Source: Caulobacter sp. CCUG 60055
Lineage (GTDB): Bacteria > Pseudomonadota > Alphaproteobacteria > Caulobacterales > Caulobacteraceae
NCBI RefSeq assembly: GCF_022750545.1
Contig: NZ_PUIC01000001.1
Location: 372,001-436,000 of the forward strand
Reading direction: 5' to 3'
Length of the DNA: 64,000 nucleotides
Positions 19,603 through 33,232 of the stretch are shown here, piece by piece. The number at the start of each line of letters is the position of its first letter. The first letter of the stretch is position 1. The notes beneath the pieces were generated by a model. That model had not been told where the DNA came from and did no database searches. It worked only from the letters and a program-made list of their open reading frames with translations. Position numbers and translations under genes: made by a program.

Positions 19603-20778
19603 CTAGGCCGCGATGCTGATCGGCCTATGGGTCAGGTATCGGTCGACGGCGGCGTCATCCAGCTCCACGCCCCATCCAGGCCCCGTGGGCACGTGGGCGA
19701 AGCCGTCCTCGTAGACGATGCGCTCGCGGATCAGGTCGTCCTCCAGCATGATGTGGCCCTGCAGTTCGGTGGCGTGGCGGATGTCGCGCGCGCGGGCGGC
19801 GTGCATGTGCAGGACGATGGCGCTGCCGATCCCCGAGGGCTGGTTGTGCAGCACGACGTCCAGCCCGCGCGCCGCGGCGTAGTCGATCGCCTTGAGCGCG
19901 CGGCTCATGCCGCCCGGCCGCTCCGCGTTGAGGCCGAAGGTGCGCACCGCGTCCATCTCGGCCAGGGTATGGAGATCGCGCAGGCCGAACGCCCCTTCGT
20001 GGGCCATCAGCGGAATGCGGCTGCGCGACTGCAGGCGCGCCATCCCAGCGAAGTCGTCGGCGCGAACGGGCTGCTCGGCGAAATCGACCCGAAAGGGGGC
20101 GATCGCGTCAAGCACGGCCAAGGCCTCGTTCGGCCCATAGGCCTGGTTGAAGTCGACCCGCAGCGCCACCTCCGGCCCCACGAGGTCGCGCATGGCGGCC
20201 ATGATCGCCACGTCCTTGACGATCCCGTCGCCGAGCTTGCAGCGGAAGGCGCGAACCCCGAGTTCGAGCCCCTGTTTCGCCAGGGCGCACACCACCGGGC
20301 CCGGCGCCAGCGGCAGCACCATGCACAGCGGAACCCGGTCGATCTGCCGCCCGCCGCAGAGGTCGTGGACCGGCCTTGAGACGCTGCGCGCCGCGACCTC
20401 GTGAAGCGCGAGGTCGAGCACGCCCTTGGCCATCTCATTGCGGGCGACGTTGTCGTCGAACTTGGCGTTGATCGCCTCGATGTCGAAGGCCGACCGGCCC
20501 AGGACGAAACGCGCGAGATGGTCGCGGATGAGGTCGGCCATCAGCATCGGCGAAACGCCGCTCTCCACCAGCCAGACGAAGGCCTCCCCTACCCCCGTGA
20601 CGCCGCCCTCGGTCGTCATCCGGCAGATCAGGAAGTCGCCGCCCAGCCAGTGATCGTCGACGTTCAGGCTCATCGCCACCTTGCCGCTGCCGCCCTGCAG
20701 CGCGGCGCGGACCTCCTCGCGGAACGGCACGTGCAGCGGATAGAGGTCGATGCGGACGATCGGATCGTGTGCGCTCAT
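19603..20778 (-). CDS. Mandelate racemase/muconate lactonizing enzyme-family protein
   Basis: A 391-residue enolase-superfamily enzyme. In the barrel, AFRCKLG carries the second-strand base. The three metal ligands are plausible in LRVDFNQA (Asp), DFAEQP (Glu) and MAHEGAF (Glu), and VVLHNQPSGIGSA carries a possible second acid/base His. The residue pattern is not that of a dipeptide epimerase, and the usual N-x-K-x-x-R-x-G-G is LNAERPGG here. The substrate is an unidentified carboxylate. Its ATG overlaps the stop of the DUF2817 gene (ATGA), so it is the last gene of an operon with 20775-23506. Confidence 0.85.
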   Translation of the reverse strand: MSAHDPIVRIDLYPLHVPFREEVRAALQGGSGKVAMSLNVDDHWLGGDFLICRMTTEGGVTGVGEAFVWLVESGVSPMLMADLIRDHLARFVLGRSAFDIEAINAKFDDNVARNEMAKGVLDLALHEVAARSVSRPVHDLCGGRQIDRVPLCMVLPLAPGPVVCALAKQGLELGVRAFRCKLGDGIVKDVAIMAAMRDLVGPEVALRVDFNQAYGPNEALAVLDAIAPFRVDFAEQPVRADDFAGMARLQSRSRIPLMAHEGAFGLRDLHTLAEMDAVRTFGLNAERPGGMSRALKAIDYAAARGLDVVLHNQPSGIGSAIVLHMHAARARDIRHATELQGHIMLEDDLIRERIVYEDGFAHVPTGPGWGVELDDAAVDRYLTHRPISIAA

Positions 20779-21878
20779 GGGGTCAGTCTTTCCTCGAGAT
20801 CGGGCGCGCCGAGGCCGCTCAGGGCCTGGGCGAACACCTCGCGTCCGCGCGCCAGGACGGCGGCGCGCCAGGACGGGTCGGCGGGATAGAAGGCGCGCAG
20901 CAGCCGCGCCTTGATCCGCCGCCCCCGCTCGCCGGCGGGGTCGCCGTGATGAACCAGCCAGTTGTCTTCGATCATGGCCGCCAGCACGACCTCGCTCGGC
21001 TCGGTGCCGTATTCGAGGGTCATCGGCGCGACGCGGACGCCGGCCAACTGCGTCTCCATGGCCTGGTTCATGTAGCCGCCTAGGATGGTGTCGGCGCGCG
21101 AGCGCGGCCGCGGCGTCACCAGCATCGGGCCGAACCATTCGGCGGTCAGCGCCTTGTGCGGCTCGCCCTCGTCCGCCGCCATCATCAACATCCCGACGCC
21201 GGAGGCGCCGAGCCCGCTGTGCAGATCGATCTGGACCACGACGCGGCGGTCGGCGAGCCGCCGCGCCCACAGCGCCTCGACCGTGCGTCGCGACCAGGCC
21301 GGGGCCGAGCCGCCGTACTGGACGCCGCGCGGAAAGGCGTACTGCCCGCCCGAGACCGCCTTGAGCATGCTCAGATAGTCGGTCGTCGCCCGCATCCGAT
21401 CCAGCTCGGCGGTGATCGCGGCCATCGCGCCGTCGGGCAGCTCGGCCGGATTGAGCAGCGCGTCGATCGCGGCGTAGGCGTCGTTCTCCGGCGTATCGGC
21501 GGTGAAATCGACGAAGTTGCGGTTGAGGTCGACATTGTCTTCGTTCACCCGCCGCAGATGCGAGAAGCCGTAGGGATTGACGGCGTGGACCAGCATCAAC
21601 GCCATGTCGGGCGGGAGAGCCGGCGCGTCCTCGACGAGCTGCAGCTGCAGGGCCGACCCGCAGAAGCCCTCGACGCCGTGGGTTCCGCTGGAGATCGTCA
21701 GGACGCGGGTCGCGTCCTGCGGCCCGCGCCATAGGACGTCCATGTAGAGCGGCCCGCCGTCGGCGCCGGCCAGCGGATGAGCGATGGCCTCGTGCGTCCA
21801 GCCGCCCAGCGCCTGAGCCGCCGAAAGCAGGCGCGTGCGCGCGGTGCGGTAGTCTTCCGAATAGCAGGTCATGGTCAT
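20775..21878 (-). CDS. DUF2817 (M14-like) metal-dependent hydrolase
   Basis: A 367-residue protein of the DUF2817 group within the M14 carboxypeptidase/deacylase clan. Zinc-binding candidates are SSGTHGVEGFCGSA (His and Glu in HGVEG) and VVQIDLHSGLG (third His). VNPYGFSHLRRVNEDNVDLNRNF is the strongly conserved N-P-Y-G-F...D-L-N-R-N block of the family. A likely catalytic Glu is in MTLEYGTEP. It probably removes an acyl or amide group from a small molecule. It overlaps both flanking genes by 4 bases, indicating tight operon coupling. Confidence 0.85.
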   Translation of the reverse strand: MTMTCYSEDYRTARTRLLSAAQALGGWTHEAIAHPLAGADGGPLYMDVLWRGPQDATRVLTISSGTHGVEGFCGSALQLQLVEDAPALPPDMALMLVHAVNPYGFSHLRRVNEDNVDLNRNFVDFTADTPENDAYAAIDALLNPAELPDGAMAAITAELDRMRATTDYLSMLKAVSGGQYAFPRGVQYGGSAPAWSRRTVEALWARRLADRRVVVQIDLHSGLGASGVGMLMMAADEGEPHKALTAEWFGPMLVTPRPRSRADTILGGYMNQAMETQLAGVRVAPMTLEYGTEPSEVVLAAMIEDNWLVHHGDPAGERGRRIKARLLRAFYPADPSWRAAVLARGREVFAQALSGLGAPDLEERLTP

Positions 21879-23506
21879 CCGGCCTGTTCCGCCGTGGCGT
21901 CATCAGCGGTCTGGACAAAGGATCCGGCGATCATCGTGCGCAGCACCTTGATCTCGCCGATACGATCGGCCGGGACGTCCAGGGGACTGGCGCTGAGGAT
22001 CACCAGGTCGGCGGCCTTGCCGGCCTCCAGGGCGCCCTTCTCGGCCTCCTCGAACTGGATGAAGGCGGCGTTGCGCGTGAACATCGCCACCGCCTGCTCC
22101 GGCTCCACGCCCTGCTCGGGATGGAAGCCGCCGCGATTGACCGCGTAGTCGATCGCGGCGATCACGTCGGGGTGCTCGATCGGCGCGTCCGACGAGCCCG
22201 CCAGGGGAATGCCGGCGGCGAAGAAGTCCCGGAACGGATAGACATGGCGCGTCCGCTCGGCCCCCAGCCGCGCCGGCAGCCAGTCCTTTTCCGAGCGGAT
22301 GAACAACGGCTGGGTGCAGATCTGCAGTCCGATCCGCGCGATCCGCGCGATCAGATCGGGGGCGGCGATCGAGGCGTGCTCGATCCGGTGGCGATGGTCG
22401 TCCCTGGGGTGCTCCGCCAGCAGCCGCTCGAACAGCCGCACGCAGTTGGCGACGCCCTGGTCGCCGATCGCGTGGATGCAGATCTGGTATCCGGCGATGT
22501 GCGCCGCCTCCATACGGCGATAGATCTCGTCGTCGGGCAGCGTCATGTAGCCATGCGTGCAGGTCTTGTCGGCGTAGGGCTCGCTCATGCAGGCCGTGCA
22601 CGAGCCGAACGTGCCGTCGGCGAAGATCTTGATCGCCCGCGCCCGGGTGGGATTTCCCGGATCGTTGAGGGGCGAGTCCACCAGCGCGCGCACGCCGTCC
22701 AGCGTCTTGCCGATGACGATGGCGTAGATGGATTGCGGCATCCGCTCCCGCACCGCCTGGACGACCAGGCTTTCCATCCGCGCGGAAGCGCCGCCGGGCC
22801 CCTCCTCGTCGCTCTGCATCATGGCCCCGATCGAGGTGACGCCGGCGGCGGCCAGCGCGGCGAAACAGGTCCGGCTCGCTTCGAGCATGCGCGCGGGGTC
22901 CGGCCCCGGCATGTGGGCCAGCGGCAGGCCGGTCGCCGCCTCGTAGAACAGGCCGTCCAGCCGCCCGTCCGCGTCACGGCCGAGCGCGCCGCCGGCCGGC
23001 GCGACCGCGTCCTCGGCGACGCCCGCCGCGCGCAGCGTCGCGGAATTGACGATCACCGCATGACCATCGCGCGTGTAGATCAGCGTCGGGCGCTCCGGAA
23101 ACCAGGCGTCGAGCGTCCGGCGGTCGAGCCGCTCGGGCCCGGCCAGGCGCTTGGATTCGAACTGGACGCCGATGAGCCACTCGGCCTCGGTCAGCCGCGG
23201 CGCCAACGCGTCGAGCCTCCTCCGGACGTCCGCCAGCGAAGCCGCGGTTTCGAGATCGGCGTTGGCCGCGAAGAACATCATCGGCAGCGGGTGCAGGTGC
23301 GGGTCTATGAAGCCCGGCAGGAGCGCGCCGCCGTCGAGGTCGATCTCCTCCGGCGCCGCGCCCGTCCGCCGGGCCCGGTCGCGGGCCTCGCCCAGCGCGC
23401 CGACGAAGACGATGCGGTCCCCGGCCGTGAGCACGGCCTCGGCCCGCAGCGCCCCGTCCGCCATCGTCAGGATCGGACCGCCGTGAAACAGGTAGGAGGT
23501 AGCCAC
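21875..23506 (-). CDS. YtcJ-like amidohydrolase
   Basis: A 543-residue metal-dependent amidohydrolase of the YtcJ/Amidohydro_3 group. GFIDPHLHPLPMM is the first metal motif (HxH), IKIFADGTFGS the conserved central segment, ICIHAIGDQGVANCV and HRIEHASI carry further His ligands, and AGSSDAPIEHP the late Asp. Such enzymes hydrolyse N-substituted amides or formamides. The GTG at 23506 was chosen because an upstream TTG at 23533 would begin inside the palindrome at 23533-23550. It overlaps the DUF2817 gene by 4 bases and lies downstream of a TetR gene. Confidence 0.87.
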   Translation of the reverse strand: MATSYLFHGGPILTMADGALRAEAVLTAGDRIVFVGALGEARDRARRTGAAPEEIDLDGGALLPGFIDPHLHPLPMMFFAANADLETAASLADVRRRLDALAPRLTEAEWLIGVQFESKRLAGPERLDRRTLDAWFPERPTLIYTRDGHAVIVNSATLRAAGVAEDAVAPAGGALGRDADGRLDGLFYEAATGLPLAHMPGPDPARMLEASRTCFAALAAAGVTSIGAMMQSDEEGPGGASARMESLVVQAVRERMPQSIYAIVIGKTLDGVRALVDSPLNDPGNPTRARAIKIFADGTFGSCTACMSEPYADKTCTHGYMTLPDDEIYRRMEAAHIAGYQICIHAIGDQGVANCVRLFERLLAEHPRDDHRHRIEHASIAAPDLIARIARIGLQICTQPLFIRSEKDWLPARLGAERTRHVYPFRDFFAAGIPLAGSSDAPIEHPDVIAAIDYAVNRGGFHPEQGVEPEQAVAMFTRNAAFIQFEEAEKGALEAGKAADLVILSASPLDVPADRIGEIKVLRTMIAGSFVQTADDATAEQAG

Positions 23507-23532
23507 GAGCGTCCGTCTCCCCGTACATCGCA

Positions 23533-23550
23533 ATATAGTAATTGCTATAT
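23533..23550. promoter_or_regulatory. Near-perfect 18-bp palindrome, probable operator
   Basis: ATATAG-TAATTG-CTATAT: eight of nine base pairs are symmetrical. It lies 27 bp before the amidohydrolase GTG start and just after the TetR gene end, a natural binding site for the TetR protein encoded at 23594-24196. Confidence 0.6.
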
Positions 23551-23593: not shown

Positions 23594-24196
23594 TCAGAAG
23601 AGATCGAGCACGCCGGCCAGCGCCTCGGCCGTCCGGTCCAGCACCACGGCTTCGTTGGCGAAACCGGTCTCGAACAGCATCTCGACGGCCGCGTAGCCGA
23701 GATGCAGGGCCAGCCCGGCGCGGATCGACAGCGCGTCCCGGTCCTCGGTCAGGCCCTGTTCGGCGAAATAGTCGACCAGCAGGACGGCCATGCGCTCCTG
23801 GTGGCGCAGGCGGATGTCGCGCAGCTCGGGAATGGCGCGCAGGGCCACGAGCAGTTCGAAGCCTCCGGTGAACGCCCGGCTCATCCGCAGCGACTCGCTC
23901 AGCATGTCGCGGCAGATGTCGCGCAGGTCGGCCGCCGTCTCCACGCGGCGGCCGGTGTCGGTGCGGATGGCCGCGCTCTGCGCGCTCAGCATCCGCTCGC
24001 CCAGCTCGCGCAGCAGCGCGTGCTTGTTCGGGAAGTAATGATAGAAGGTCGGCGGGGTCAGGCCCGCCCGCACCACCACGGCGTTCGAATTGACGCCCTC
24101 GACGCCCGCCTCGGCGAGAATCGCCTGCGCGGCCTCGACAAGGCGCTCGACCCCGCTGGTCTTCGCGCCGGGGCGCGCTTTCTGCTTCGAGCTCAT
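23594..24196 (-). CDS. TetR/AcrR-family transcriptional regulator
   Basis: A 200-residue regulator. The HTH region (about residues 15-65) has LVEAAQAILAEAGVEGVNSN and AGLTPPTFYHYFPNKHALL, the TetR F-Y-x-Y-F-x-x-K recognition segment. The C-terminal ligand domain is all-helical. It lies directly upstream of, and on the same strand as, the amidohydrolase/DUF2817/enolase operon, with a palindrome between. It is therefore the likely local repressor of that operon. Confidence 0.88.
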   Translation of the reverse strand: MSSKQKARPGAKTSGVERLVEAAQAILAEAGVEGVNSNAVVVRAGLTPPTFYHYFPNKHALLRELGERMLSAQSAAIRTDTGRRVETAADLRDICRDMLSESLRMSRAFTGGFELLVALRAIPELRDIRLRHQERMAVLLVDYFAEQGLTEDRDALSIRAGLALHLGYAAVEMLFETGFANEAVVLDRTAEALAGVLDLF

Positions 24197-24238: not shown

Positions 24239-25003
24239 TCAGATCGAACTGGAGTCGAGATCGCCAAACGCCGCGGTCCGGGATCGGGCCGACCATTCGA
24301 CGCAAGCCCTCGCCAGGGCCAGCGTCGAATCCACAAAGCATCCGTCAAACCGCGCATAGGTCAGCAGGGGCAATTCCGTACAGCCCAGGATGCAGGTTCG
24401 CGCGCCGCGCGCCGCCAGATTCCGGACCACCCCGTCCAAAGCATGACGAACGGATGCGATGCGGCCCGCCTTGACGGCTTGGATCACCTCGACCACCCGC
24501 GCCTGGTCGGCTGGGACCGGAACGATCAGATCAAGACCCGCCGCCGCCATGGCCGAGTGATAGATGTCGGCCTGCATGGTGGCGCTGGTTCCGATCAGCC
24601 CCACGGCGGCCCCGCCGCCCACCTTCCGAACCTGATCGATGACGGCGTCGATCATGCTGATCATCGGCGTGCGAACCGAAGCCTGCAACGCGTCGAACCA
24701 GAAGTGGGCGGTGTTGCACGGCACGACGATGGCCGCCGCGCCGGCGCTTTCAAGAACCTGCGCCGCGTCGCGCATGGCCGCGAACGGAGACTCGGTTCCA
24801 TGCAGGATCGCGCCGGCCCTGTCCGGAATCTGCGGCAGGACGTAGGTCAGGACCGGGATGTGCTCCTGATCGACGCTGGCGGGCGTCAGGTCCTGCAGCT
24901 TGTTGAGGAAATCGGTGGTGGCCCGCGGGCCCATCCCCCCGACGACGCCCAGAAGGCCGGAACCCCGCCTGCGATCCTGATTTCTGGAGACGGCCGACCC
25001 CAT
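24239..25003 (-). CDS. Aspartate/glutamate racemase-family protein
   Basis: A 254-residue racemase. The two catalytic cysteines are in VVPCNTAHFW and ILGCTELPLL, and LLGVVGGMGPRATTDF is the family's N-terminal motif. Such enzymes interconvert D- and L-aspartate or glutamate (or related hydantoins) without cofactor. It is separated by one base from the upstream epimerase-transporter gene, so the two are almost certainly co-transcribed. In this setting it could convert imported D-Asp/D-Glu to the usable L form. Confidence 0.88.
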   Translation of the reverse strand: MGSAVSRNQDRRRGSGLLGVVGGMGPRATTDFLNKLQDLTPASVDQEHIPVLTYVLPQIPDRAGAILHGTESPFAAMRDAAQVLESAGAAAIVVPCNTAHFWFDALQASVRTPMISMIDAVIDQVRKVGGGAAVGLIGTSATMQADIYHSAMAAAGLDLIVPVPADQARVVEVIQAVKAGRIASVRHALDGVVRNLAARGARTCILGCTELPLLTYARFDGCFVDSTLALARACVEWSARSRTAAFGDLDSSSI

Positions 25004-25004
25004 G

Positions 25005-27482
25005 TCAGGCCGCCCTCGCCTCGGCTTGCTGTTCTTCGCGTCCCTCGGCCTCCAGCCGCCTGACCGGCCGATCGAGCAACACGAGCACCGCGCTGGTCAG
25101 TCCCGTGGGAACCGCCATCAGCAGGAAGAACTGGGCGTGGGAGATATGGCTCCACAGAGTCCCGAGCGCGCCGGCGAACAGGTTTCCCGCGAAACAGGCG
25201 AAGAACCAGGCTGCGATCATCGTGGCCTGCATGCCCTTGGGCGCGAGGCGGCCGAACAGCCCAAGCCCCACCGGCAGGATGTAGAGCTCGCCCACGGTCA
25301 GGACCAGGAAGAAGGCGGCGAGCCAGAGCCAGTGGGCCTGCCTCGCCCCGCTGCACCAACTCACGACCGCGAGCATCACGAACGACAGCCCGACGAGGCC
25401 GGCGCCCATGGCCATCTTCGCCAGCGGCGACGGCTCGCGACCACGCGTCGCGGCTCGCGCCCATCGCATGATCAGCAGGGGGGTGATCAGGAACACGAGC
25501 AACGGGTTCAGCGACTGGAACCAGGTCATCGGAATGCTCCAGTCGCCCAGGCCGATGGCGCGATTGACCCCGTCGTCGGCCCACAAGGCCACGGTGTTGC
25601 CGGTCTGCTCGTAGGCGCCGCGGAAGACCATGACCGTGACGGCGACGCCGGCAAGCAACGCGAACCGGTTGAAACGCCTGGCTCCAGACCCCGCGCTCCG
25701 CGCCGCCGCCGCTCCCCCGGTCCGGGCCGGTTCAGGCGGCAGATGGCGCCGACCGAGGACGTAGATCGCCAGGCCGGAGACCATGCCGATCCCCGCGGCC
25801 GCGAAACCCCAGTGCCAGCCGTAGAGTTCGCCCAGCGTGCCGCAGATCAGCGGGGCCAGGAATCCCCCGAGATTCACCCCCACATAATAGACGTTGTAGG
25901 CGGACGACCGGCGCGGATCGGCGGGGCTGTACAGATCGCGGATCTGGCTGGGCAGGCTGGGCAGGAAGAGGCCGTTGCCGATCGTGATGACCACCAGGGC
26001 CAGATAGAACAGCGGCTCGAACGCCATCATGAAATGGCCGGCGGCCATGATCACGCCGCCGATGATGACCGAGGCCCGTCGCCCCAGCCAGCGATCGGAG
26101 ATGACCCCGCCGAGCACCGGGGTGAAGTAGACGAAGGCGGTGTATAGCCCGTAGATGAGCGAGGCGTTTTCCTGGCCGATCAGCAGACGCTTGGTCATGT
26201 AGTAGATCAGCAGCGTTCTCATTCCGTAGAACGAGAATTTTTCCCACATCTCCGTCAGGAACAGGACCGTGAGGCCTCTGGGTTGCCCGAACCAGTCGGA
26301 TGTTTGCTTGGCGGGCCTGGCCCGCAACGCGCTGATGTTCGCCATGGCTTGAACCGTTTCCGGGGGGCGAGCCCCCTCCCCTGGGTCGTCTTGTTGAAGC
26401 TGGAAATCTCGCGAACCTTCGCCGGGCGGGATCGCTGCCGAGGGCGACGAAGGGGCGACGGCGGCGTCTGTCGCCGGGGCGGGATGTCCCCACAGCTCGG
26501 GCGGGCACCAGACCGTCCCGCCGCGATAGACGGCCGGGACCGGCCTGTCGGCGGCGAGAAGAAGCGGTCCGTTCAGGGAAACGCCGTCGCACAGCTGGCC
26601 GAGCATGAAAGCCGGAGCCATGGCCAGGCTGTCGCCTCGCGCGCCGTCGACCCTCGCCTTGAGGCCCAGGCGGCGCGCCTCGAAAAGGATCGCCAGGCCC
26701 TCGGTGAGCCCCCCGCACAGATCCAGGTCGATGATGACCGCGTCCACCCGGCCCGCCAGTTTCGCCACGTCGGCGGCCTCCCGCACGGCCTGTCCCACGA
26801 TCAGGGGCGTCGACGGGGCGGGTCGTCCGGGCGGGGCGTCGCGGGCTTCCGAGGCGGGCTGTTCGGACCAGAGCACGCCGGCCGCCTGCAGGCTGGACAT
26901 CTGCCGGTGCAGGGCCTCATGCCTGGGCGCGACGGCCCATCTGACGCCCAGCAGGACGTCCGGTCGCGCGGCCCGGACCATTCGCAGCCGTTCGCCATCG
27001 AGAAGATCGCCGCCCAGGACGACGCTCAGCGAGCGCGCCGACGCATGGACCTGGGCCATGGTCGCCATCGTCTCGGGCCGGTCGACGTCTAGGACGTAGG
27101 TGTTGACCAGGGGCTCCGGCTGCGGGAGGCCGGCGAGCCGCCAGACGGGCTTGCCGGATCTCCTGGCCTCCAGGTCCCAGAACGCGCAGTCGAGGGCGTT
27201 GCGCGCGACGCCCGGCGGCGTCAGCCTGTTGAGCGTGGGCCGGTCCAGGCCGCCCTTGAGGTCGGTTCGCACGGCCTCGATCTGCGCCAGGACCGTGGCG
27301 ACGGCGTCTGGCTGGGCCGGGATCGCGGCCTCGCCCCGGCCCGAGAACGGGCCGTCTCGCAAGGTGACGGCGACGACCTGCATTTGCGAGCCGCCGCAAG
27401 GGCCCGTCCGCGGCGAGGACCTCAGGGGCCAGGCCTCCACCGCCGCCTCGAGCGTAGGGCGGGCTTTGCGGGCGGTGTTCAT
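25005..27482 (-). CDS. Degenerate dipeptide-epimerase domain fused to a POT-family peptide transporter
   Basis: One uninterrupted frame of 825 codons. Residues 1-332 have the dipeptide-epimerase fold (LEAAVEAWPL at the start, NALDCAFWDLEARRSGKPVW, CPPELWG at the end). Compared with L-Ala-D/L-Glu epimerases, the K-x-K lysines are Ser153 and Val155, the first metal Asp is Arg181, the D-E pair is Gly230-Gln231 and the far-side Lys is Leu255; only Glu207 (SEQP) remains. Residues 333-379 are a Pro/Ala-rich linker. Residues 380-825 are a complete proton-coupled oligopeptide transporter with EMWEKFSFYGMR (the ExxERFxYY motif, Arg to Lys), GGVISDRWLGRR and NVYYVGVNLGGFLAP. POT N-termini are cytoplasmic, so the dead-enzyme domain would face the cytosol. 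A separate start at Met380 is possible but has only a weak SD. Confidence 0.82.
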   Translation of the reverse strand: MNTARKARPTLEAAVEAWPLRSSPRTGPCGGSQMQVVAVTLRDGPFSGRGEAAIPAQPDAVATVLAQIEAVRTDLKGGLDRPTLNRLTPPGVARNALDCAFWDLEARRSGKPVWRLAGLPQPEPLVNTYVLDVDRPETMATMAQVHASARSLSVVLGGDLLDGERLRMVRAARPDVLLGVRWAVAPRHEALHRQMSSLQAAGVLWSEQPASEARDAPPGRPAPSTPLIVGQAVREAADVAKLAGRVDAVIIDLDLCGGLTEGLAILFEARRLGLKARVDGARGDSLAMAPAFMLGQLCDGVSLNGPLLLAADRPVPAVYRGGTVWCPPELWGHPAPATDAAVAPSSPSAAIPPGEGSRDFQLQQDDPGEGARPPETVQAMANISALRARPAKQTSDWFGQPRGLTVLFLTEMWEKFSFYGMRTLLIYYMTKRLLIGQENASLIYGLYTAFVYFTPVLGGVISDRWLGRRASVIIGGVIMAAGHFMMAFEPLFYLALVVITIGNGLFLPSLPSQIRDLYSPADPRRSSAYNVYYVGVNLGGFLAPLICGTLGELYGWHWGFAAAGIGMVSGLAIYVLGRRHLPPEPARTGGAAAARSAGSGARRFNRFALLAGVAVTVMVFRGAYEQTGNTVALWADDGVNRAIGLGDWSIPMTWFQSLNPLLVFLITPLLIMRWARAATRGREPSPLAKMAMGAGLVGLSFVMLAVVSWCSGARQAHWLWLAAFFLVLTVGELYILPVGLGLFGRLAPKGMQATMIAAWFFACFAGNLFAGALGTLWSHISHAQFFLLMAVPTGLTSAVLVLLDRPVRRLEAEGREEQQAEARAA

Positions 27483-27596: not shown

Positions 27597-29189
27597 TCAG
27601 TCGACCTTCTTGAAACTCAGGTCCTTGAAGTCGAAGCTGGTGTCGGTGGACGGCGAGATGGCCTGCATCGTCATGCCTTCGACCCGGCGATCGTAGCTCT
27701 GGGTGAACCGGACAAAGGCGTCGGCGTCGAGCGCCCTGTCCTTCCAGCGCACGACGAAGATGTCGCCGCTGTAGGGCAGAAGCCGCCCTTCCAGGGCCTC
27801 GGTCCTGCTGAACTTCAGAACCAGGTGGTCGCCCTCGACCCGGACGCCGGCGTCGCCGCGCCAGGGGTCGCGATAGACGCCGGCGTAGGTCTGCAACGGC
27901 AGGGTCGGCTTGACGTCGCCGCGTTTGAGGACCGCCTCGACCTCGGTCTCCTTGGCGCTGACCTGCTCGCGCTCCTCGTCGACGGCCTCTTTGAACACCT
28001 TGACCCAGTCATGATCGGATCGGCCGAGCTGGGCGTCGACAATCTGCAGCATCAGGGCCAGCTTCGCGGCCTCGTGCTGCTGGTTGGTCAGGACGATGAC
28101 GCCGAACTTTTCTTCCGGCAGCATGGACACGACCGAGCTCATGCCGGTGATCTCACCGTCGTGATAGACCAATGTGCGGCCGGCGACGTCGGCGACGCCC
28201 CATCCCAGCGCATAGGACTGGAACTTCAGCCCCGCCTCGGCGCTCAGTCCTTCACGGGCTGGCGGCAGCAAGGTCTGGGGCGTGGACAACTCCAGCGTCT
28301 GGGCCTTGCTGAGCAGCCGCTTCCCATCGGGCGCCACGCCTTCCGCCAGCAGCGTGCTCACCCATTTCGCCATGCCGGGCAGGTTGCACTGCATCGAGCC
28401 GGCCGGCCCGACCAGTTCGAGATTGTCGGCCTTGACCGCCTGCATGACGCCCGCGACCGGCACGTGGGGAGAAGCCAGATTGGCCGTGCTCTTCACGCGC
28501 CGCAGATTGACGGCGCAGGGCTCCATGGCGAGCGGGGCCAGGATGCGAGCCTGAACGAAGTCTTCCCAGCTCTGGCCGGTGACCGCCGGTATGATCTGGC
28601 CGGCGACGACATAGAGCAGGTTGTCGTAATTGTACTTGGTCCTGAAGCTGGAAGACGGCTTCAGGTTCCGCAGGCTGCGGATGATCTCGTCGCGGGTGAA
28701 GTCGCTCGACGGGACGAACATCAGGTCGCCCGCGTAGGAAGGCAGCCCGCTGCGGTGGGTCAGCAGGTCGCGGATCGTGAATTCCCGGGTGACGTAAGGA
28801 TCGTACATCCGGAAGTCCGGAAGGTGATCGATGACCTTGTCATCCCATTTGATCTTCTTCTCATCGACCAGGATGGCCAGGGCCGCCGCCGTGAACGCCT
28901 TGCTGTTCGAGCCGATGCCGAAGATGGTGTCGGGATCGACCTTGTCGCCGCCGCCCAGTTGGCGGACGCCGTAACCCTTGGCGAAGACGAGCTTCCCATC
29001 CTTGACGATCCCGACCGAAACGCCCGGGACGTCGAAGGATTTCATCGCCCTGGCGACGAGTGCGTCGATCTTCGCCGGCGTCATCGGCGGAGAAGCCGAA
29101 CGCCCCTCCCCCGCCGACGCAGCCCCGACGAACATCAAGACCGTCGACATCGCCAGCATCGACGCTGACGCCCAGTGCTTCCGCAGCAT
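27597..29189 (-). CDS. Serine hydrolase, class C beta-lactamase/D-aminopeptidase-like
   Basis: A 530-residue exported hydrolase. Its signal peptide ends near AASA. SxxK is Ser94-N-S-Lys97 (GIGSNSKAF), YxN is Tyr188-D-Asn190 and the third motif is YHDG. The domain spans about residues 35-400; the last 110 residues are a separate beta-rich domain (DUF3471-like; YAGVYRDPWRGDAGV). This penicillin-binding fold includes D-aminopeptidases, esterases and MlrB of microcystin degraders. A strong SD GGGAGGG precedes the ATG. It is the first of three related hydrolases. Confidence 0.9.
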   Translation of the reverse strand: MLRKHWASASMLAMSTVLMFVGAASAGEGRSASPPMTPAKIDALVARAMKSFDVPGVSVGIVKDGKLVFAKGYGVRQLGGGDKVDPDTIFGIGSNSKAFTAAALAILVDEKKIKWDDKVIDHLPDFRMYDPYVTREFTIRDLLTHRSGLPSYAGDLMFVPSSDFTRDEIIRSLRNLKPSSSFRTKYNYDNLLYVVAGQIIPAVTGQSWEDFVQARILAPLAMEPCAVNLRRVKSTANLASPHVPVAGVMQAVKADNLELVGPAGSMQCNLPGMAKWVSTLLAEGVAPDGKRLLSKAQTLELSTPQTLLPPAREGLSAEAGLKFQSYALGWGVADVAGRTLVYHDGEITGMSSVVSMLPEEKFGVIVLTNQQHEAAKLALMLQIVDAQLGRSDHDWVKVFKEAVDEEREQVSAKETEVEAVLKRGDVKPTLPLQTYAGVYRDPWRGDAGVRVEGDHLVLKFSRTEALEGRLLPYSGDIFVVRWKDRALDADAFVRFTQSYDRRVEGMTMQAISPSTDTSFDFKDLSFKKVD

Positions 29190-29394: not shown

Positions 29395-31074
29395 CTATCT
29401 GGGCGTCTCGGCCAGCCGGTCGAACTGCACGTTCCTCACACGGTCGCCGGTCAGGCGCAGCCCTGTGACCTTTCCACCGGAGCCCCTGACGAAGCGAACC
29501 AGCAGCCCTTCGAGGTCGAAGGCGTCGGCGTAGGATGAAGCCAGGTCGAAAGCCGCCTCCGGATGCCCCTTGATCGCCAAGGTCAGGTGATCGTCCTTCA
29601 CGCCGATCAGGTAGGTCGCCCCCGCCTCATCGCTGGCGTAGGCGCCGGCGTAGGCGGCGAGCGACTGCGCGGTTGCGGGCGAAACGGCGCCTCCCCGGTG
29701 GAACGAGGCCAGGCCGCCATAGGCGTCGGCCAGGGTGAACCTGTCCTTGTTTTCGAAGCTTAGGACCGAACCCGCCGATTCAAACCGAGCGGCGGACGCG
29801 AGGGCCAGTTGCATGCCGCCCCCCACCTGCAAGGCCCCCTCCGCCAGTTTCAGCTTTACGGGAGCGCCGGTCGTCTCGTTGATGAAGACGCCCTCGATCC
29901 CCGCCATGGGCTGGATCGGAGCCTTGGGTTTCGGCGTCGCCGGCGATTTGGAGAGGAAGACGTCGGCCACGGCGTGGGCCAGGGCTTCGTTGTCCGCATC
30001 CGCCCGATTGCACAGCAGGGCGATGGACAGGCCGTCTTTGGGATACCGGCCGAGCCACGCCGTGTAGCCGGCCGTCGCCCCCGGATGGGCGATCTCGGGA
30101 TGGCCCCGGTAGTCGGCCCAGATTAGTCCGCGCGCATAGTTGATCCGCCGTCCTGACGCCAGGACGCCATGCTCGGCGAGGCCGCCCGCGACATAGGCGC
30201 TGATCCGTCCATCGGTCAGCGCCGCGTTCCAGATCAGCATGTCGCCAGCCGTCGTCAGCAGGCCCGCATGACCGTAGGTGTCCTCGAAGGGCATGGCTTG
30301 GGCGAAGCCGGTCTCGGTCGGCGAATAGGCGATCGCTCGCCCCTTCTCCACCCGCCGGAAATTGTCCCGCCAGCGGGTGTTCCGCATGCCCAGGGGGGTG
30401 AAGAACTCGGCGGCCGTATAGTCCGGCAGGCTCTTTCCGCTCACCCGCTCGGCGACGATGGCCAGCAGGTTGTAACCGGTGTTGGTGTAGGAGAACTCGT
30501 CGCCGGGCGTGAAGTTCAGCGCCTTCTGCCGAACCGCGAGGTCCAGGACGTCCCGCATCGAATAGACGCGGGCGCCGCGCGGCTCGCCGGCGAAAGAGGC
30601 AAGCTCTCCCCAGTCCCGAACGCCGCCGGTGTGGTTCAGCAGGTTGAGGATGGTGACGACGTGGCCATAGTCAGGCAGTTCGGGGATGTATTTCCGCACG
30701 TCGTCGGTGAGCGACAGCTTGTGCTGCTCCGCCAGGCGCAGAACGGCCGCGGCGGTGAATTGCTTGGACGTCGACCCCGCCTCGAACACGGTCGCCGGGG
30801 TGTTGGGCGCATCGTGCTCGAGGTCGGCCACGCCATAGGCCCGGATGATCGAGGCGTTGCCCTTCTGGTCCACGCCCACGACGCAGCCAGGCGTCTGGCC
30901 CGGCTTCCATTGCGCGAAGACCTTGTCGATCCTCCCGACGACGGAAGGGAGCGCGGCGGGCCGGACGCCGACCGCCGGCTTGGCCGCGAGGGCCGGGCCG
31001 GCCGTTGTCGAACAGATCGACAGCGCGACCGCGGCGACGTTGACGATGAATGCTCGCTTCTGATTGTCGGGCAT
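29395..31074 (-). CDS. Serine hydrolase, class C beta-lactamase/D-aminopeptidase-like
   Basis: A 559-residue exported relative of the gene at 27597. The signal peptide ends at GPALA. The motifs are Ser101-T-S-Lys104 (EAGSTSKQF), Tyr-T-Asn (FSYTNTGYN) and H-P-G (IAHPGATAGY). The C-terminal 150 residues form a beta-rich domain. The ATG at 31074 was chosen for the signal; the open frame upstream (to 31497) runs through the next gene's coding sequence on the same strand and is not plausible. A likely periplasmic peptidase or esterase. Confidence 0.88.
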   Translation of the reverse strand: MPDNQKRAFIVNVAAVALSICSTTAGPALAAKPAVGVRPAALPSVVGRIDKVFAQWKPGQTPGCVVGVDQKGNASIIRAYGVADLEHDAPNTPATVFEAGSTSKQFTAAAVLRLAEQHKLSLTDDVRKYIPELPDYGHVVTILNLLNHTGGVRDWGELASFAGEPRGARVYSMRDVLDLAVRQKALNFTPGDEFSYTNTGYNLLAIVAERVSGKSLPDYTAAEFFTPLGMRNTRWRDNFRRVEKGRAIAYSPTETGFAQAMPFEDTYGHAGLLTTAGDMLIWNAALTDGRISAYVAGGLAEHGVLASGRRINYARGLIWADYRGHPEIAHPGATAGYTAWLGRYPKDGLSIALLCNRADADNEALAHAVADVFLSKSPATPKPKAPIQPMAGIEGVFINETTGAPVKLKLAEGALQVGGGMQLALASAARFESAGSVLSFENKDRFTLADAYGGLASFHRGGAVSPATAQSLAAYAGAYASDEAGATYLIGVKDDHLTLAIKGHPEAAFDLASSYADAFDLEGLLVRFVRGSGGKVTGLRLTGDRVRNVQFDRLAETPR

Positions 31075-31217
31075 CTGATGGGGTCCTGCTTCCGGCGAGC
31101 CGGGTTTTCCGTTCGATGGGGTGATTGTCGGGTTTGCGGTTCGCTGGCCGCCACGGTCGCGGGGGCGCCTCGGCGGGCCCCATCTCCCTGCGGATGGGGC
31201 CGTGAACCGGACGGACC

Positions 31218-33137
31218 TCATCCGAACCTCCAGCCCAGCAGGTTCCATTGAGCAAAGAAGGCGACGACGCCGAGCGCCGCCAGCGCGATCGCGGAATGAT
31301 AGAGCCGCAGCCGCAAGGTCAGGCCCTTCCGCATCCAGACCCGCACGACGGCGACCAGGGACGCCGCGGTCAGCCCGATGAAGACGATAGGCATGCCCAA
31401 GGCGAGCTTCAGGTTCAGCGGCACGCTGCTCTGCCGGGCGACCACGTCGGTCAGGATCAGGAAGACGAACAGCGCCGCGAGGGTCAGAGGCCCCCACAGG
31501 GAGACGGCGGTCGAGATCAGGATCAAGCGCCTGTCGGCGCGGGGCGCCGCCCAGATTTCACGTCGCCGATAGAGGAAGCCCAGCAACGCGCTGCCGAACA
31601 GCAGGAGGGCGACGACGAGCACGGGATACCAGAGCGCCGTATCGTCGAGCAGCGAGGCCCGTTCCAGCGGGATCGGCGACAGGAAGTCCATGAACATGTG
31701 GGTGACCGCGCCCGACCCATCGACGCGGAAGGCGATGCGGCGCTGTCCGCCGATCTCCTGGAACAGGTCCGGGCCCGTAGGCGCGAACTGGACCGCGTCA
31801 TTGCCCTGGCCGACGCTCAGGCCCTCTCCAGACACCTTGACCGGCATCCGGGACAGCAGGTCGTAGACCTTGTCGACCTTGGTGTGGTTGCGGCGGGTGA
31901 ACTGGTAGGAGCCGGCGTACTTCTCGAGGGAGGCCGCCTTGTAGGACGCCGGCGCGCCGCCCTGGGGCGGATAGTAACGCGCCAGCAGAGCCTTCTCGAC
32001 GTTCTCGGCGGCCACGCCGCCCTCGCCGCCGCTGAACGAGATGAAGACGCCCAGATTGTGGGCCGGCAGCAGGGACAGCTCGGTGTTGAAGGCCGGATCC
32101 GATCCGCCATGGCCCACCAGCATCTGACCGCCCATCGCGGTCTCGTAGAAACCGAGGTCCATCGCTGGGAGGCGCTTGTCGTAATAGAAGGCCGGCGTTC
32201 GCATCAGGCGGGCCGTGGCCGGCAGCAGTATCCGCTTGCCCTCGTACTCGCCGTCCTGAAGCTGGGCGATCATGAACCGGGCCATGTCGGCGCCCGAGAC
32301 CGCGCCGGAACCGGCGGGGCGGAAGCCCCCCTCGAAGGTCTGCTTCTGGAAGACGAAGGCTCCGTTCTCCCAGGCGTAGCCGTTGACCTTGTAAGGGACC
32401 AGCGCCGCGGGGACCGGCTCGCGCACGGTGGCGTACTTCATGCCCAAGGGGTCGAAGATGTTCCTCTGGACGTAGTCCTCGTAAGGAACGCCGGTCACCT
32501 CCTGAACGATCAGGCCGGCCAGCGCGGCGCCGTAGTTGGAGTAGGAAAGCATCTCGCCCGGCGGGCGCACCCGCGCCGGAATATGAGCGCCGAGCACCTT
32601 GGCGATCGAGGGTTCAGGTTGCAGGGCGATGCCGTAGCCGACGCTGCCTTCCTCGAACCCCGCCGTGTGGGTCAGCAGGCTCCGCAGCGTGACGGGCTTG
32701 GCGTAGGTGGCTGGAATTTTGAACGATTTCAGATAGGTGTTGACGTCCGCATCGAGATTTAGCCTGCCCTGTTCGACCAACTGCATGACCGCTGTCCAGG
32801 TGAACAGCTTGGTCGTGGAGGCGATGCGGAACAGGCTCTTGTCGGGGTCCACCCGCGCGCCCTTCTCGACGTCGGCGTAGCCGTAGCCCTTGGCGAGCAG
32901 GGTCTTGCCGTCCTTCACGATGACGATGACCGCGCCGGGTATCTTCCATTGCTCCATCTGGGCGGTCATGACGCCGTCGACGAACGGCGCCAGCGTCGTG
33001 ACGTCGTCCAGGATCGGCGAGGCCGGCGCGGCGGAGGCGACCTGCGGGGCGGGCGGCGGGACGGCGGCGTCCGCCGCCCCGCCGCTGAGCGCCAATCCCG
33101 CCATCAGGCAGGCGGCGATCTTCTTCACGTTCATCAT
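31218..33137 (-). CDS. Serine hydrolase with C-terminal membrane domain
   Basis: This 639-residue protein is the third penicillin-binding-type hydrolase of the locus. It has a signal peptide (CLMAGLALSGGAADA), Ser107-T-T-Lys110 (RIASTTKLF), Tyr-S-Asn (LSYSNYGAA) and H-G-G (VGHGGSDPA). Unlike its neighbours it ends in about four membrane helices (ALWYPVLVVALLLFGSALLG to the C-terminus), which would hold the catalytic domain at the outer face of the inner membrane. The start is one of two adjacent ATGs; AGAGG lies 8 bases upstream. Confidence 0.87.
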   Translation of the reverse strand: MMNVKKIAACLMAGLALSGGAADAAVPPPAPQVASAAPASPILDDVTTLAPFVDGVMTAQMEQWKIPGAVIVIVKDGKTLLAKGYGYADVEKGARVDPDKSLFRIASTTKLFTWTAVMQLVEQGRLNLDADVNTYLKSFKIPATYAKPVTLRSLLTHTAGFEEGSVGYGIALQPEPSIAKVLGAHIPARVRPPGEMLSYSNYGAALAGLIVQEVTGVPYEDYVQRNIFDPLGMKYATVREPVPAALVPYKVNGYAWENGAFVFQKQTFEGGFRPAGSGAVSGADMARFMIAQLQDGEYEGKRILLPATARLMRTPAFYYDKRLPAMDLGFYETAMGGQMLVGHGGSDPAFNTELSLLPAHNLGVFISFSGGEGGVAAENVEKALLARYYPPQGGAPASYKAASLEKYAGSYQFTRRNHTKVDKVYDLLSRMPVKVSGEGLSVGQGNDAVQFAPTGPDLFQEIGGQRRIAFRVDGSGAVTHMFMDFLSPIPLERASLLDDTALWYPVLVVALLLFGSALLGFLYRRREIWAAPRADRRLILISTAVSLWGPLTLAALFVFLILTDVVARQSSVPLNLKLALGMPIVFIGLTAASLVAVVRVWMRKGLTLRLRLYHSAIALAALGVVAFFAQWNLLGWRFG

Positions 33138-33232
33138 CAAGCGGACCTCTTGCAGCCCTCGGGCGGTCCGCCGCCGACTGGCGGCGGCCGCTTGCGGGGT
33201 ATGCGTTGTGGGAAAATTGCGGCCAGCGAGGG

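Follow-up and report, generated by a model that had tools for sequence, protein, structure and literature searches.

Dipeptide epimerases of the enolase superfamily are described as working with Mg and a two-base lysine mechanism (K162 and K268 of YkfB; PMC5808125). Among peptide:H+ symporters of the POT family, PepT1 and PepT2 set a precedent for a transporter with an added, dispensable domain that binds a partner (PMC4597091). In the open-licence literature of PMC, no paper was found on an epimerase–POT fusion or on an operon of a dipeptide epimerase and a peptide transporter, and among the papers listed on pseudoenzymes of the enolase superfamily or on enzymes fused to transporters, none concerned this pair.

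The two families meet in one open frame within the window, a stretch of 64,000 nucleotides from Caulobacter sp. CCUG 60055. The frame runs on the minus strand (27482..25005) and encodes 825 amino acids from an ATG without an internal stop; a GGGAG is read from the sequence seven bases ahead of the start codon. As the original prediction stated, this single frame of 825 codons has two domains, models of the epimerase family and the POT family matching residues 1–332 (26487..27482, minus strand) and 380–825 (25005..26345 with the stop, minus strand). Residues 333–379 between them (26346..26486, minus strand) form a spacer rich in Pro, Ala and Ser. Because long open frames are common in the GC-rich DNA of the window, many of them antisense in the ORF list, the openness of the frame alone is weak evidence. 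A chance frame is ruled out for residues 1–332 and 380–825 by homology and by codon periodicity, which is gene-like in both (GC3 of 89.5% and 88.1%, respectively). The frame is confirmed as real. Both of these parts are coding sequence, while the spacer does not resemble it.

Residues 1–332 make up an enolase-fold domain that falls in the DgcA / L-Ala-D/L-Glu epimerase family. NF042940, the model of DgcA (N-acetyl-D-Glu racemase), matches residues 12–332 (E 1.3e-64), missing its equivalog cut-off with 218.5 vs 400 bits, and the L-Ala-D/L-Glu epimerase model matches residues 15–313 (E 4.4e-38). With Pfam models, the enolase N-domain narrowly passes its cut-off (24.1 vs 22 bits), and the C-domain narrowly misses its own (28 vs 29.4 bits). 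By sequence, residues 1–379 come closest to two solved structures, 4gfi (E 4.9e-47) and 1jpd, an L-Ala-D/L-Glu epimerase (E 3.9e-36). When residues 1–379 were modelled, as had been proposed with the prediction, the model had the enolase-superfamily fold of capping domain and barrel at a mean pLDDT of 84.9. Its best PDB match was 4gfi (VIA-align Z 40.1; 2.1 Å for 321 residues), and 1jpd was also matched, both matches being homology-driven in that the model was made with an alignment of 60 relatives. The model was limited to these residues because a joint full-length alignment misplaced the epimerase rows (14–19% identity).

The active site of this domain is largely gone. The strand-2 K-x-K, which reads K, K in 115/115 relatives of a de-duplicated set, is replaced by S153 and V155 in an S-V-V motif. 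At the positions of strands 3 to 5, where 115/115 relatives have D, E and D-E, the domain has R181, E207 and G230/Q231, keeping the glutamate; we take the D, E and D of these strands to be the metal ligands of dipeptide epimerases. Both lysines of the strand-6 K-L-D-K, again K, K in 115/115 relatives, are replaced in a D-L-D-L motif (D252 and L255) that keeps the aspartate, invariant in the relatives. The far-side base lysine equivalent to K268 of YkfB is thus lost whichever strand-6 lysine corresponds, as both are replaced. The strand-1 threonine (T in 113 and S in 2 of 115 relatives) and the strand-8 D-x-D (D, D in 115/115) presumably contact the dipeptide in epimerases, and they are changed as well, as is an asparagine invariant in the 115 relatives.

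The original prediction had named the six replacements at 153, 155, 181, 230, 231 and 255 with E207 kept, and it named them rightly; the relatives read K, K, D, D, E, K there in 115/115 cases, and also in 105/105 rows of an earlier alignment that contains at least one gene twice (L002, L117). Its claim that the catalytic residues are lost is borne out and exceeded, the further losses being K252D, N183A, T130V, D302S, D304N, M277R, G279D and M281A. Judged from its sequence, the domain fails as a member of the L-Ala-D/L-Glu (dipeptide) epimerases on both the catalytic residues and the equivalog cut-off. The prediction had also set homologues with intact catalytic residues against itself. Such homologues exist, as all 115 relatives are intact, but they are separate genes in the pairs compared, and intact relatives speak for the ancestry of the domain rather than for its activity.

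The losses are unevenly placed. Among the columns conserved at 97% or more in the 115 relatives (n = 40, with columns less than 90% occupied removed ahead of the counts), the domain keeps 24 and loses 16, while the lowest share kept by any of 60 of the 115 other members in the same test is 39/41. All 16 lost columns lie at the C-terminal ends of barrel strands, that is, on the active face, where 5 of the 24 retained columns lie as well (Fisher p 3e-7). The strand-end zone spans the final four residues of every predicted strand plus the three that follow, a rule set once the losses were known. Put the other way, 16/21 conserved columns of the active face are lost at this threshold and 0/19 elsewhere. 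When neutral decay was simulated to equal losses, 6.7–6.9 columns on average were lost outside the strand ends, with a minimum of 3 in 450 runs. The bias persists in two alignments when the conservation threshold is varied between 0.8 and 1.0 (p 5e-5 to 9e-8). With the 115 relatives, the off-face losses at 90% are A168M and L218P out of 39 columns, and at 80%, 19/30 active-face columns are lost vs 7/62 others. The lid residues F24 and I26 are also lost in the 60-row alignment. With its catalytic motif lost and most of its fold residues retained, the domain has, at the sequence level, the marks of a pseudoenzyme, and the bias of the losses toward the active face argues for a fold-preserving pseudoenzyme over plain pseudogene decay.

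Constraint on the domain has likely been relaxed to some extent, because its GC2 is raised and its hydrophobic residues are less well retained. GC2 is 54.5% vs 47–48% in near relatives, matching simulated neutral decay. Over all hydrophobic columns, 47/52 are kept (0.90), which is under every intact relative (minimum 0.942); off the active face, 30/33 are kept, which exceeds the neutral mean (0.79–0.80) but stays within the neutral range (maximum 0.97). The end branch of the domain in the trees is 1.89 long, compared with 0.9 for the next longest and 0.61 for its own POT, in trees built from 55 of 116 rows where the long branch makes the placement of the domain unsure. Comparison with four near relatives shows no frameshift in the domain, and single residues are deleted at one or two places. 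In simulated decay, the frame stayed stop-free in 3–20% of runs in one set and in 7–13% in another, and GC3 ended at 79 to 89.5% depending on the starting gene.

The transporter half was originally called a full POT transporter, and it holds up as one. TIGR00924 (yjdL subfamily, oligopeptide:H+ symporter) matches from residue 397 with E 6.4e-84 (282.7 vs a cut-off of 130.2 bits), and Pfam PTR2 matches with E 3.1e-47 (161.8 vs 27 bits). Among 65 relatives, and again with columns less than 90% occupied removed, 53/53 columns conserved at 97% or more are kept and 86/88 of those at 90%. Passing the cut-offs and the conserved-residue tests, the half appears to be an intact POT, which would be expected to take up di- and tripeptides with protons. 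Its Met380 is at about the position where stand-alone POT genes begin, and the ATG of this residue (26343..26345, minus strand) is read from the sequence as a possible internal start.

The spacer differs from both domains in composition. Its coding log-likelihood is negative and its GC3 is 63.8%, like non-coding DNA. Among 503 stretches, each 47 codons long, taken from 61 coding-like frames in the genome, none is as low in GC3, including 46 with a linker-like residue make-up, although these frames were chosen for high GC3, which favors the contrast. The spacer in this respect resembles DNA that was once intergenic. Given this composition, the epimerase domain was probably dead while still a gene of its own and was joined later, or else a sequence error hides a stop; the fusion may accordingly be young or doubtful. 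A special RNA structure at the junction was considered and rejected, as 26310–26420 folds no better than its shuffles (z +1.13; 175 of 200 at least as good).

The domain pair was searched for in the same family, as had been proposed with the prediction. No second fusion was seen in 299 genomes of that family (E up to 1e-30, among the matches listed), nor in 385 genomes of the class and 398 of the phylum (E up to 1e-110); these sets overlap, and two to three best candidates per genome were scored, so that a weaker fusion could escape. None of the 17 pair-bearing loci among the 80 kept of 398 genome contig loci is fused. Plasmids gave 80 matching records, and among the 10 listed, the annotation has two genes in both records with a query coverage of 80% or more. 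A defence-system library gave no match. The fusion is seen in a single genome, the comparison set being drawn from outside the genus, and any selection on the fused form would therefore be conjectural.

The arrangement from which the fusion could derive is common. Out of 29 distinct epimerase–POT pairs, 28 consist of separate genes lying within 1.5 kb on the same strand, and only that of the window is in one frame. In 14/27 other pairs examined closely, the epimerase stop is overlapped by 4 bases with a start codon, consistent with translational coupling. Of the 17 pairs with enough flank, 16 have an S12-type serine hydrolase no more than 2.5 kb upstream. The order S12 hydrolase, epimerase, POT is found in Rhodanobacter, Dyella, Steroidobacter, Novosphingobium, Phenylobacterium and others (loci L031–L051) and, in the same genome as the fusion, at L113; records named Phenylobacterium, Brevundimonas and Caulobacter are among the relatives. 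This cluster may be a horizontally spread scavenging cluster.

In the window, three S12-type serine hydrolase genes lie upstream of the fusion on the same strand. The nearest (27597..29189) matches the Pfam Beta-lactamase family with a DUF3471, the second (29395..31497 as listed among the ORFs) probably starts further downstream, and the third (31218..33140) is also a family match. Downstream on the minus strand, an Asp/Glu racemase-like gene (24239..25003), which passes the cut-off of the model for the cysteate racemase CuyB, has its ATG one base beyond the fusion stop.

Six further genes of the epimerase family, all intact in the catalytic columns (L111–L116), are present in the same genome, and the L113 epimerase is paired with a POT 65% identical to that of the fusion. 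Five other full-length POT relatives are present at 56–64% identity, making six with the one in the window. Epimerase-domain matches number seven in this 4.1-Mb genome, the fusion included, compared with 0 to 2 in each of 59 other genomes. The epimerase and POT genes of the source genome are a local expansion.

Further downstream, a DUF2817 gene (20775–21878) and an amidohydrolase-3 gene (21875–23533) run in the same direction on the minus strand, with an overlap of about four bases where they meet, and the gene of a TetR regulator (23594–24196) is nearby. These genes are probably one peptide or D-amino-acid catabolic cluster. It also contains a second enolase-superfamily gene (19603–20772, minus strand, start probably at 20778) with an atypical active site, in which R-C-K stands for K-x-K, H-E for D-E, and E-R replaces the lysine of others. 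The atypical site is kept in a 67–68%-identical relative (G040, L159) from another family of the order, and no further match at E 1e-80 was found in 289 genomes of the class. The gene looks like a rare but conserved variant.

We conceived that the fusion is a non-catalytic epimerase-fold domain tethered to a POT, acting as a scaffold or a regulator, and we put the chances of this at about even. The ancestor would be a peptide-scavenging operon in which, judging from the families, small peptides made by the S12 serine hydrolase enter through the POT symporter, and D-residues of dipeptides are converted by an epimerase in the cytosol. The epimerase of the window has lost both the K-x-K and the strand-6 lysines, together with most metal ligands and the presumed substrate contacts, with other conserved residues mostly kept, and the six intact paralogues, if active, could supply the lost chemistry. 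Stop loss between the adjacent genes, which the spacer suggests, may have joined the dead domain in frame to the POT. One polypeptide would be made, a POT carrying a cytosolic dead domain on a flexible tether (residues 339–378 are modelled at pLDDT below 50), and the domain might, for example, keep a partner, such as an active epimerase paralogue, at the transporter exit. Its role would be structural or regulatory, not catalytic. A more specific version has a retired epimerase kept as a docking or control module of the proton-coupled importer and only then tethered covalently as a permanent cytosolic domain. This version is speculative, and we lean clearly against it, but if true, it points to a physical complex of POT and dipeptide epimerase in these operons.

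Several other explanations were weighed. The epimerase part could be a decaying pseudogene, free of stops by chance in GC-rich DNA, with the POT alone, made from Met380 or by coupling, as the functional product. The non-coding-like spacer, the start of POT relatives near the matching place, the decay-like shift of GC2, the 3–20% of simulated runs that stay stop-free, the longest end branch and a hydrophobic retention below that of any intact relative all suit such decay. It is nonetheless rather unlikely in our judgment, because the losses cluster on the active face at both the 97% and 80% thresholds, no frameshift is found, and GC3 is as in real genes. A base error in the draft assembly could instead hide a stop, so that a stand-alone pseudo-epimerase and a POT are two proteins in the cell. 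The source is a single draft genome in 27 contigs, and the separate genes of 28/29 pairs and the spacer composition would suit an error, but one-base errors are rare in modern draft assemblies and the sequence itself has no sign of one. We regard a hidden stop as improbable.

The remaining two explanations give the domain a reaction or a ligand. The barrel could now serve another reaction, perhaps one without metal, or bind another ligand, new charges (R181, R277, D252 and D279) having arisen beside E207. Charged residues added on the old active face of a domain that keeps most other conserved residues would agree with this, but no reaction is pointed to, E207 is all that is left of the canonical metal ligands, and the charges may be mere salt bridges that fill the cavity; a new reaction is thus very unlikely. 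The original prediction suggested that the dead domain may sense dipeptides in the cytosol or gate the transporter, on the ground that both ancestral families share a substrate class, and the recurrent operon agrees with that. This claim is not supported, as the columns presumed to contact dipeptides are lost together with the metal and base residues, and the spacer leaves the fusion young or doubtful. Dipeptide sensing is probably not the role, and we consider the sensor or gate the most improbable of the explanations weighed.

The locus matters because its active site is cleanly erased with most other conserved residues retained, and because the intact operon recurs in several families, so that the ancestral and derived states are directly comparable. 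Should the fused protein be produced, it would suggest a physical role of dipeptide epimerases in serving the peptide importers encoded with them. The cluster of S12 hydrolase, epimerase and POT also offers a testable route to scavenge D-amino-acid dipeptides.

Compared with DgcA and L-Ala-D/L-Glu epimerases, the domain is alike in fold and in full-length homology (35% identity to 4gfi, and up to 48–49% to the intact epimerase paralogues of the same genome), but it is without the K-x-K, the strand-6 lysines, the D and D-E positions of the metal site and the presumed substrate contacts. Compared with the clusters of S12 hydrolase, epimerase and POT, the gene order is the same and the genes are homologous, whereas the epimerase is dead and in frame with the POT behind three S12 genes, that of the relatives being intact and a separate gene. 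The transporter half matches POT/PTR2 symporters at the same curated cut-offs and in the conserved residues, but among the POTs of the epimerase–POT pairs, it alone has a 379-residue in-frame N-terminal extension, unlike the other 28. In PepT1 and PepT2, the extra domain is Ig-like, extracellular and placed between TM9 and TM10 (PMC4597091), whereas that of the fusion is an N-terminal enzyme relic, presumed to be cytosolic.
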